Below are positions 2,915 through 18,955 of a DNA stretch of 64,000 nucleotides, piece after piece. Location of the stretch: positions 1 to 64,000 of the forward strand of contig JAQTXH010000007.1 of the NCBI GenBank assembly GCA_028688905.1. Direction: 5' to 3'. Position 1 is the stretch's first letter. Each line of letters opens with the position of its first letter. The notes below the pieces were generated by a model. That model worked only from the letters and a program-made list of their open reading frames with translations. It searched no databases and was not told the DNA's origin. Position numbers and translations under genes: made by a program. The DNA comes from Acidiphilium sp. Its GTDB lineage: Bacteria > Pseudomonadota > Alphaproteobacteria > Acetobacterales > Acetobacteraceae.

Positions 2915-3004
2915 CGTCAAAACCTGTCATCTTCACACGGTAGTTTCGCGCCCTTCCCGAAATTCCCGATCGGAATTCCAGGAAGGCGCATCTGGTCGGC
3001 TAAC

Positions 3005-15974: not shown

Positions 15975-16667
15975 TCAAGCCGAAAGCGTACTCACATCAA
16001 CCCGAACCCCGGGGCCCATGGTCGAAGACAACGCCGCCTTCTGCAAATACGTCCCCTTCGCCCCGGCCGGCTTCGCCTTCTGAATCGCATCGACCAACGC
16101 CTTCGCGTTCTCGATCAACAACCCGGCATCGAAACTCGCCTTGCCGATCCCCGCATGGATAATCCCGGCCTTCTCCGCCCGAAACTCCACCTGGCCCGAC
16201 TTCGCCGCCGTGACAGCACCTTTGACGTCCATCGTCACGGTGCCCAGCTTCGGATTCGGCATCAGCCCGCGCGGCCCGAGAATCTTGCCCAACCGGCCCA
16301 CCAGCGCCATCATGTCCGGCGTCGCAATGCAGCGATCGAACGCGATATTCCCGGCCTGCACCTGCTCGGCCAGATCGTCCGCCCCAACCACATCCGCACC
16401 CGCCGCAAGCGCCTCTTCAGCCTTGGTGCCGCGCGCAAACACACCAATCCGCAACGTCTTGCCCGTGCCGTTCGGCAGTGAAATCAGCCCGCGCACCATC
16501 TGATCGGCATGCCGCGGATCGATGCCCAAATTCAACGCCAACTCCACCGTCTCGTCGAATTTCGCTCCCGCATTGGTTTTCACCAACGCCATGGCATCCG
16601 CCAGCGGATACAGCTTCGTCTTGTCAACCAAAGCCGCCGCCTTAACCAAACGCTTGTTCTTCGCCAT
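15975..16667 (-). CDS. rplA: 50S ribosomal protein L1
   Basis: This 230-residue protein is normal for L1, which forms the mobile L1 stalk and helps release E-site tRNA. The conserved [19 protein letters not shown] segment and the C-terminal [13 protein letters not shown] are intact. It starts 2 bp after the rplK stop, so the two are coupled. In many bacteria L1 represses its own operon; no leader evidence was sought beyond position. Confidence 0.98.
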
Positions 16668-16669
16668 GA

Positions 16670-17104
16670 TCAGCCCTCCACCACCGAAAGACCCATCGAC
16701 CGCGCCGACCCGACCAACATCCGCACCGCGCCATCGACATCATTGGCGTTCATATGCACCATCTTGGTCGCCGCAATTTCCCGTAGCTGCGCCATGGTGA
16801 CCTTACCAACCGTAGCACCCTTGCCCGTGGTCGTAGACCCCTTGGTAATCCCGGCCGCCTTCTTCAGAAAATACGTGTTCGGCGGCGTCTTGGTAATGAA
16901 GGTGAAACTGCGATCGCCAAAAGCGGTAATCACCACCGGCACCGGCATCCCGACTTCCATACCCTGCGTGGCAGCATTGAAATCCTTGCAGAACTGCATG
17001 ATATTCAACCCGCGCTGCCCCAAAGCAGGCCCCACCGGCGGCGACGGATTAGCCTTGCCCGCCGGTATCTGTAACTTGATATAGCCAACAATCTTCTTCG
17101 CCAT
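16670..17104 (-). CDS. rplK: 50S ribosomal protein L11
   Basis: This 144-residue protein starts at [40 protein letters not shown] (ATG 17104). The open frame extends upstream but that part is not L11-like. L11 binds the GTPase-associated region of 23S rRNA and is needed for the stringent response. It is the first gene of the cluster. The usual upstream nusG is absent; an AT-rich island lies there instead. Confidence 0.98.
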
Positions 17105-17201
17105 CAGGCGCACTCCTATCCGCTGGCGCAAAACGCCAATAGACCGCGGTCCAACCGGCCAAAGCACCCATGCCCCAACCTCCCGCGTTCTGTGTGCGCC
17201 G

Positions 17202-17230
17202 CCTATATCGCCCCCGGCCCGAATTGTCGA
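17202..17230 (-). promoter_or_regulatory. Putative sigma-70 promoter of rplK-rplA-rplJ-rplL-rpoBC
   Basis: On the minus strand TCGACA (17230-17225) and TATAGG (17207-17202) are separated by exactly 17 bp, about 100 bp before the rplK start. Both hexamers are close to consensus. This would make the cluster independent of the missing nusG region. Confidence 0.55.
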
Positions 17231-17256
17231 GTCGGGGAGCCAGAGGCAAGCAAGCC

Positions 17257-17297
17257 CTGCTTTTTTGTAAAAAAGCAGCAAAAAACTTTTATAAATG
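17257..17297. repeat. AT-rich palindrome family, copy D
   Basis: CTGCTTTTTT/AAAAAAGCAG form a perfect 10-bp stem (17257-17278), followed by CAAAAAACTTTTATAAAT. The tail matches the AAAAAACTTTATGAAT that follows the hairpins at 14820 and 15839. It sits exactly where sequence composition changes from rplK upstream DNA to the AT-richer island. Confidence 0.75.
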
Positions 17298-17351
17298 TCT
17301 TTAGAGTGTCTGTAATTGGCAAAATCGTTTTGATTCGGCTAATCGGCTAAC

Positions 17352-17870
17352 ATGACTTTCTCATTCCAAAGCGTCATGAGTCTCGACAAAATGGTCGCTG
17401 GCAAACCGAACTGGTCCGAACCGGATGGCGCGGACAAACGTGTCAAGTTAGTTGCTCCCCTTATGATCGATCACCGCGTGCTTCGCGGTCTGGAGTTGAT
17501 AGGCAGAGCGGCAATTGAGCTTCGCAACGTCGACGTGAGTTTCACTTTGGTTTACCATCCAACGGATAATCGGCGGGACGCGATCCAAATTGCGAGAATT
17601 GATTGGAGACCAAAAACGCCACACGCCAACGATCATCCACGTACACCATCTCACTTGATGGGGGAGATCGTCGGGACGCATCATCATTCTTTCGCTCTGA
17701 ATTGGTCTGATTGTGCTGGTGGCCCGTTAAAATGGCTTCCCATCGCCGAAGAAATTGTCCCGGATTTCCAATCGTTCAGGAATCTTGTTGACGGGATGGG
17801 TGTTTTCTTTAGAATCCCAAATGCAGGCTTTGCGATTGAATCACCTTGGCCTAAGGATTTGTTTGGATGA
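17352..17870 (+). CDS. Unrecognised protein, first gene of an AT-rich two-gene cassette
   Basis: This is a soluble-looking protein of 172 residues with no signal peptide or membrane segment. Notable features are a basic/aliphatic first half (DKRVKLVAPLMIDHRVLRGLELIGRAAIEL), a His-rich centre (TPHANDHPRTPSH, then GEIVGTHHHSFALNW) and an aromatic C-terminus. The pattern of a strand with His near an H.H motif loosely recalls DUF6978-type proteins; that is a weak impression. The start is uncertain: no clear ribosome binding site precedes 17352, and ATGs at 17376 and 17391 are alternatives. Its stop overlaps the next gene as ATGA. Base composition is visibly AT-richer than its neighbours, suggesting transfer. 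Confidence 0.75.
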   Translation: MTFSFQSVMSLDKMVAGKPNWSEPDGADKRVKLVAPLMIDHRVLRGLELIGRAAIELRNVDVSFTLVYHPTDNRRDAIQIARIDWRPKTPHANDHPRTPSHLMGEIVGTHHHSFALNWSDCAGGPLKWLPIAEEIVPDFQSFRNLVDGMGVFFRIPNAGFAIESPWPKDLFG

Positions 17871-18640
17871 TAACCGCCTTCGAGGAGACGAGCAGTAGCT
17901 CTATTCATGACCTGCACATTCAGAGCGCAGTGTCTCAACTCGTGCGCGTGTCGTTTTGGGGCAATTTTTATCTGGTAACAACTCCATTAGTGTATCCATC
18001 TGGAAGCATGGTAGGCGTTCGGATAACGCCGGACAAAGCTGGCTATATAGTATCCGATTTTGCTATGGGTTACCGCGAGGCGGAAAGCGCGGAAGCACAA
18101 CGCTCTTTCGGAGCGCATGCTGGCCGACTGAAGGAACATCTGGGTATTGAATATTCAGACGGTCACGAAGTCAGACTCCATGTTCAAGAGAAACAGATTG
18201 CGTCAGCGATTAGGAGGGTAGCGTACGCATCTCATCGAATAATGATGAAGGTTTATGACTCAACTCCTGCGTGGGATGAGCAAGAGATAGGTGCGAGTTT
18301 ATTTCAACGGTTACGTGATATGTTTGGTGACACAAAAGTAAAAGGAGACGTAACCGTTCTGGGTGCGTCAAATATCGACTGGCATTTTACGGCAGAGGTT
18401 CAGAATACCCATAAACGGACGTTCTTTGATGTGGTTACGCCTCACCATTCGTCTGTTTTTTCTGCTGTAAGCAAATTCAGCGATATACGTCGCTTAGGCG
18501 GCGGCGTTCAACCGGTAGCCGTGGTTAGTGATCTAAATGGGATGGGGAAATGGTTGCCATTAATAGCGCAAGAAGCAGAAGTGATTCAGGACGACGCAAG
18601 TGAAGACACGATTCGTAATCTAGTCGCGGAAGCTGCATAA
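17867..18640 (+). CDS. DUF1828-like protein, second gene of the cassette
   Basis: This 257-residue protein starts at the ATG overlapping the previous stop (ATGA), so translation is probably coupled. Residues about 25-105 (FYLVTTPLVYPSGSMVGVRI...GYIVSDFAMGYREA...) follow the pattern of DUF1828: a strand-rich segment ending in a conserved 'sD.g' followed by helices. Residues about 140-240 (DWHFTAEVQ...RTFFDVVTPHHSSVFSAVSKFSDI) resemble the C-terminal domain often fused to it. The function of that family is unknown; such genes are often found in mobile or defence-rich regions. Composition is AT-rich like its partner. The family call is from pattern memory only. Confidence 0.75.
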   Translation: MITAFEETSSSSIHDLHIQSAVSQLVRVSFWGNFYLVTTPLVYPSGSMVGVRITPDKAGYIVSDFAMGYREAESAEAQRSFGAHAGRLKEHLGIEYSDGHEVRLHVQEKQIASAIRRVAYASHRIMMKVYDSTPAWDEQEIGASLFQRLRDMFGDTKVKGDVTVLGASNIDWHFTAEVQNTHKRTFFDVVTPHHSSVFSAVSKFSDIRRLGGGVQPVAVVSDLNGMGKWLPLIAQEAEVIQDDASEDTIRNLVAEAA

Positions 18641-18658
18641 TTACTTTGTATAGAAATC

Positions 18659-18686
18659 GTAGGATGGGTCTCCTTTGAGACCCATC
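18659..18686 (+). repeat. REP-type element: GTAG followed by a perfect 10-bp hairpin
   Basis: GTAG (18659-18662) is followed by GATGGGTCTC-CTTT-GAGACCCATC. A GTAG head on a short palindrome is the defining layout of REP sequences mobilised by RAYT transposases. It lies 18 bp after the cassette's second gene, so it may also act as its terminator hairpin, though no T-tract follows. A RAYT remnant is 130 bp downstream. Confidence 0.7.
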
Positions 18687-18814
18687 AATCCAACCACACC
18701 AAAACCCATCCACACACCCACCGCCCTGCATCACCCCCGCCGCGCCACGCAATAACAAACCAACCGCCACCCCACCACTTCCACGCCCGTCACAACCGCC
18801 CTACCCTCCCCGCC

Positions 18815-18955
18815 ATGACCGATTACCGCCGCAACCGAATCCCCGGAGGCACGTATGTCTTCACGGTCGACCTCCACGATCGCCGTTTCACTCTTCTAAC
18901 CTAACACATCGAAACCCTGCGCGACTCCATCCACAAAACCCGCGTGCCCCTTTCA
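18815..18955 (+). pseudogene. REP-associated tyrosine transposase (RAYT/IS200-like), N-terminal remnant
   Basis: Translation from 18815 gives MTDYRRNRIPGGTYVFTVDL, then HDRRFTLLT, a TAA stop (18902-18904), and in the same frame HIETLRDSIHKTRVP. This is the well-known RAYT N-terminus (xYRRxRxxGGTYFFTVxLxxRR...LL..hi..LR.a). After about 45 codons the similarity ends, and the rest of the transposase (HUH and tyrosine motifs) is missing. The region from 18956 to 18998 shows nothing further. Confidence 0.75.

Follow-up and report, generated by a model that had tools for sequence, protein, structure and literature searches.

In a 64,000-nucleotide stretch of an Acidiphilium sp. genome (contig JAQTXH010000007.1 of assembly GCA_028688905.1, positions 1 to 64,000 of the forward strand; hereafter the window), we have examined two overlapping genes located beside the ribosomal protein gene rplK, whose products are called P1 and P2. 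As judged from sequence comparison, the two genes form a divergent branch among pairs of the DUF6978 plus DUF1828/DUF1829 type, the PADLOC candidate PDC-M24, and we regard them as probably a two-gene module against phages, of the PDC-M24 kind, gained by horizontal transfer. In relatives, the pair is a mobile and co-inherited module. An anti-phage function is favoured on the basis of genomic context, and the specific sensor/effector mechanism outlined below is put forward tentatively.

The P1 gene (17352..17870, plus strand) encodes 172 amino acids and the P2 gene (17867..18640, plus strand) 257 amino acids; both frames are intact with zero internal stops, and the family-invariant residues are retained. 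Stop and start codons overlap as ATGA (17867..17870, plus strand), which couples the two genes. The sequence-only reading of this DNA had described two plus-strand genes with this overlap, AT-richer than their neighbours, and both points agree with our examination. The G+C content (GC) of the P1 and P2 genes is 0.499 and 0.479 and that at third codon positions (GC3) is 0.509 and 0.438, all below the minima for 41 other open reading frames (ORFs) of the window (GC: mean 0.627, sd 0.030, minimum 0.572; GC3: mean 0.734, sd 0.058, minimum 0.606), which were chosen greedily by length and some of which are possibly not genes. A search of 12 further genomes of the genus, some of them as little as 78% complete, gave no P1 match, and P1 was present in 2 of 195 genomes searched, own included.

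Family assignment depends on remote similarity. Neither protein matched a Pfam or NCBIfam model at E<=1; P1 had no match to DUF6978 (PF22398, gathering cut-off 29.6), and P2 was without a match reaching the gathering cut-offs of DUF1828 and DUF1829 (PF08861 and PF08862), all three being families of unknown function in Pfam. P2 matched PADLOC PDC-M24B over residues 17-193 (E 2.7e-6, 25.2 bits; judged without PADLOC's own cut-offs) and phrog_1960 (E 6.3e-4). The canonical arrangement is represented by the locus L037 (L, G and C numbers are our handles for loci, genomes and contigs), in which gene 1 matches PDC-M24A (2e-56) and DUF6978 (2e-44) and gene 2 matches DUF1828 and DUF1829. Profile comparison with canonical members gave E 4.5e-5 and a probability of 69% for P2; that of P1 with canonical DUF6978-type proteins gave E 7.7e-4 and a probability of only 25%; in that alignment the H-x-N and H-x-H motifs coincide. 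We call P1 DUF6978-type because this weak sequence evidence is accompanied by the gene order. Against DUF6978, the P1 counterparts of L042 and L022 reach scores of 23.6 and 24.1, also under the cut-off, and P2 has an identity of 11-15% to seven aligned members from phage contigs. The earlier description "DUF1828-like" therefore holds at the level of remote profile similarity and the PDC-M24B match, and does not extend to Pfam membership of either protein at E<=1. The divergent branch appears so far in alphaproteobacteria, where most of the searching was done.

Pairing of the two genes is conserved. An adjoining same-strand ORF of at least 144 amino acids lies upstream of the P2-type gene in 34 of 36 loci, which are not independent (L095 and L096 belong to one genome and several phages are closely related) and only part of whose upstream ORFs were tested against P1; partial P2 matches (L023/L033, L024, L047, L092 and L093) were excluded from the counts. 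In the 34 loci, the position of the upstream ORF's end relative to the P2 start ranges from an overlap of 67 nt to a gap of 53 nt, and in the two exceptions, L038 and L048, this ORF has 71 and 93 amino acids. Distance matrices of P1 and P2 were correlated for 20 aligned pairs (r 0.85), for the closest 13 (0.88) and for the closest 9 (0.84), with 0 of 5000 permutations as high in each case, a correlation that co-inheritance alone would explain. The family is rare: the P1 profile was found in 4 of 398 genomes of the phylum, the P2 profile in 7 of 289 and 12 of 385 genomes of the class, and PDC-M24B in 11 of 299 genomes, own included throughout. As a separate observation, ORFs of 154 and 157 amino acids, similar in size to gene 1 and unannotated in the records, precede the DUF1828 gene in L061 and L066, just before position 3001.

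One kind of carrier is transposons of the IS1595 family of insertion sequences (ISs). An IS1595-type transposase follows the pair on the opposite strand at six loci of five genomes (L026, L027, L028, L031, L095 and L096); PF12762 and PF12760 were found in the transposases of the first four, although the L028 frame ends early, and that of L095/L096 was identified by eye and then served as a search query. Terminal inverted repeats (TIRs) enclose the pair and the transposase in all six copies, with 21 to 25 of 28 bases matching, and none of 120 control positions per locus was as high (maxima 17 to 20). A perfect 8-bp target-site duplication (TSD) was found in three copies (L027, L095 and L096), a perfect match being given by 7 to 11 of 2000 random position pairs in these loci; the TSD is ambiguous in L031 (a run of C), and none was found in L026 and L028. 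L095 and L096, located at two sites of one genome, are 99.8% identical across 2451 columns and have different flanks and duplications. The sequences are thus strong evidence for transposition of the pair as cargo in relatives, and ISs in general can carry passenger genes, according to the available part of PMC3129680. A partial transposase lies beside L044/L099. The window gave no match in the transposase search, and neither did the other pair-bearing loci submitted to it, such as L036, L025, L037, L039-L043, L048, L097 and L098. The genome containing the window (G000) has five IS1595 transposase matches, two of them partial, on contigs C6, C19 and C24. We have rejected the idea that the window copy has IS1595 ends or was moved by a resident IS1595; the repeats found around the examined resident copies differ from those of the cargo-bearing elements.

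Temperate phages are another carrier. Among the phage and plasmid records examined (7 of 17 and 3 of 9, respectively), the pair lies between a repressor or regulator gene and the integrase gene in Lj965, Staphylococcus phage 37, Javan197 and Javan642; an integrase is downstream, with a less clear upstream order, in Javan249, the satellite Javan357 and TMW 1.1365 P3. The IMG/VR contigs L048 (first ORF only 93 amino acids) and L069 (genes identified by eye) show an arrangement similar to those phages. In a Pseudochrobactrum plasmid prophage, the pair is close to an S24 gene, a single small gene on the opposite strand separating the two, and in L018 it follows an S24-type gene. Other contexts were also seen: L037 is a type I restriction locus in which the pair has HsdS on one side and, on the other, an Abi_C protein and then HsdR; L039 adjoins an MmeI-type gene and L040 a reverse transcriptase, and in L038 the lone P2 gene is next to a DNA methylase; no defence neighbour was recognised in L041 and L043; and in Sphingomonas faeni (L036) an orphan pair is flanked by a gene for a sigma factor and a pseudouridine-synthase-like gene, both named by eye. 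The window pair is likewise an orphan without its own transposase.

Prediction of protein structure gives a further clue. In active PD-(D/E)XK nucleases, strand 2 bears an acidic residue and strand 3 the (D/E)xK motif, and the fold has an alpha-beta-beta-beta-alpha-beta core. The AlphaFold model of P2 residues 134-257 contains this core and is predicted to have a PD-(D/E)XK-like fold (Z to 10.8), with Can2, Card1, BstEII, PspGI and McrBC among the matches. Unlike active enzymes, (D/E)xK is absent at the aligned place in all 29 aligned P2 proteins, and the strand-2 acid, retained in 20 of them, is Thr in the window P2. We read the C-terminal domain of P2 as a putative, catalytically dead restriction-nuclease fold.

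We have also examined the insertion site. By blastn comparison with the rplK loci of six relatives (G006, G003, G011, G001, G010 and G007), the inserted segment, with approximate limits, is 17293..18653, which has no similarity to the rplK upstream regions compared; homology to G006 spans 16635-17292 and restarts at 18654. Directly left of the insertion and outside the cassette lies an AT-rich palindrome (17257..17278), a dispersed repeat with similar elements at about 14902 and 15921, making three in the spaces around ribosomal protein genes of the window. The sequence-only reading had taken this palindrome as a cassette boundary; a similar one precedes rplK in G006 and G003, both without the cassette, and we have therefore rejected it as a cassette end. 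The REP/RAYT remnant noticed on the other side was found again, as a hairpin resembling repetitive extragenic palindromic (REP) elements (18658..18686, or 18663-18686 when delimited more narrowly) and a remnant resembling a REP-associated transposase (RAYT) at 18815..18944 on the plus strand, the latter named by eye with no family search run. Window positions 18654-18944 align (73% identity, 310 columns) with G006 sequence in which a longer open RAYT-like frame begins.

The rplK gene was found in 12 of 13 genomes of the genus, own included. Of the 11 relatives in which it was matched, 8 have a divergent aldo-keto reductase gene near it, starting about 235-255 bp beyond the match in seven and about 1.06 kb in one. 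No such reductase was found in the compared stretches of G006, G003 and G011, whose rplK genes are the most similar (99%); the gaps of these three hold other ORFs, namely one of 199 amino acids together with a RAYT-like frame, one for a trypsin-like peptidase, and two of 94 and 213 amino acids. In the window, the reductase gene is retained and the gap is 2.96 kb. The gap is thus variable in content and probably a site of repeated gene gain; it may be a hotspot, because three relatives (loci L005, L006 and L007) hold three different ORF sets. The proposal that the cassette occupies the normal place of nusG-secE did not survive this comparison, since relatives carry the reductase (8 of 11) or other ORFs (3 of 11) there; a displaced nusG-secE was rejected for the same reason, and also because the sole SecE match of the genome is on contig C10 (NusG was not searched). 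A clean empty insertion site was not seen in the closest relatives compared. The gap of the window further holds a family 2 glycosyltransferase gene (PF00535; 18999-20045, minus strand), which separates the reductase gene from the RAYT-like remnant.

The proposal of a coupled and transferred accessory module is thus supported by absence in relatives, composition, conserved pairing and mobile carriers. As for its function, the carriers, namely lysogeny modules, transposons and a restriction locus, fit anti-phage activity or superinfection exclusion better than metabolism or structure. The earlier suggestion of a defence system accordingly stands as to context (the PADLOC candidate, the restriction/Abi locus L037 and the lysogeny modules of prophages), the function itself being what we infer from it. 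A possible architecture, which we offer with considerable reserve, is one in which a dead restriction-nuclease domain (DUF1829) serves as the sensor governing a small partner whose fold is unrecognised, both being spread by IS-sized autonomous transposons and temperate phages. Coupled translation would yield P1 and P2 together as a complex, in which P2, with an N-terminal domain of uncertain fold and the dead nuclease fold, might bind nucleic acid or a phage product while holding P1; upon infection, P1 would be released or activated, and growth or phage replication would be halted. On a transposon or in a prophage, the pair would shield the bacterium carrying that element against other phages. 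The putative roles of P2 as sensor/partner and P1 as effector are assigned because of the analogy with DS-6/HipAD described below, and the earlier idea of a His-rich first protein as effector is weak, because the HxH pair is replaced in 2 of 10 aligned first proteins (L068 and L069). Several points weigh against the assignment as an anti-phage module: P1 fits no family model and does not match PDC-M24A at E<=1, the flanks of the window pair contain no transposase, TIR or 8-bp TSD around it, and defence is deduced from context.

Small overlapping genes carried by many mobile elements could also be a toxin-antitoxin (TA) or addiction pair that stabilises transposons and prophages, with P1 as toxin, P2 as antitoxin and any anti-phage effect secondary. 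DUF1829 does occur, in the available text of PMC13092281, within the partner of the HipA-type toxin of DS-6/HipAD, for which the authors put forward a TA hypothesis; however, Pfam recognises no DNA-binding antitoxin domain in P2 and a self-copying IS would have little need of addiction, and we consider this explanation unlikely. Even less probable is a regulator of lysogeny or superinfection immunity that was taken from prophages and acts on repressors, not in defence: in several phages the pair comes after a gene for a repressor or an ImmA-like protein and ahead of int, which would suit such a role, but it also occurs on IS1595 elements, within a restriction locus and, with no recognised phage genes nearby, as an orphan on chromosomes. 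We give similarly little credence to a decaying passenger without present function in this genome, since the intact frames, the retained family-invariant residues and the preserved ATGA coupling argue otherwise, although the pair is an orphan of foreign composition, has RAYT-like debris adjacent and is absent in 12 of 12 genus relatives.

By this analysis, three families, DUF1828, DUF1829 and DUF6978, are joined in one co-varying mobile unit, DUF1829 gains a predicted fold with a concrete prediction, namely binding instead of catalysis, and sequence evidence indicates that a minimal IS1595 element has recently moved a candidate defence pair. The predicted fold, the unit and the transposition evidence therefore make the function testable. 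A dead-nuclease sensor with a small partner may, quite speculatively, represent a previously undescribed immune architecture.

Concerning known systems, our literature search on PDC-M24 found no paper; families of the pair occur as table entries in the available parts of PMC10821479 and PMC13210130, and none of the three families appears in the available text of PMC11514479. The window pair shares with PDC-M24 two adjoining genes, their order, similar sizes, the PDC-M24B match of P2 and remote profile similarity of both proteins, and differs in that P1 matches no PDC-M24A model at E<=1, P2 matches no Pfam model and the relatives reside in IS1595 carriers. DS-6/HipAD is, according to the accessible portion of PMC13092281, an experimentally validated anti-phage system, a TA system by its authors' hypothesis, whose protection requires a predicted catalytic residue of a HipA-type kinase; as described there, it resembles the pair in having two genes with DUF1829 in the second protein (the B protein), and differs in its kinase partner and in the DUF3037 that this protein contains besides DUF1829. 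Passenger-gene ISs of the IS1595 family (transporter ISs) share with the relatives of the window pair the IS1595-type transposase, the TIRs and, in three of six copies, perfect TSDs; the window copy lacks all three features, and the cargo of the relatives is a candidate defence pair.
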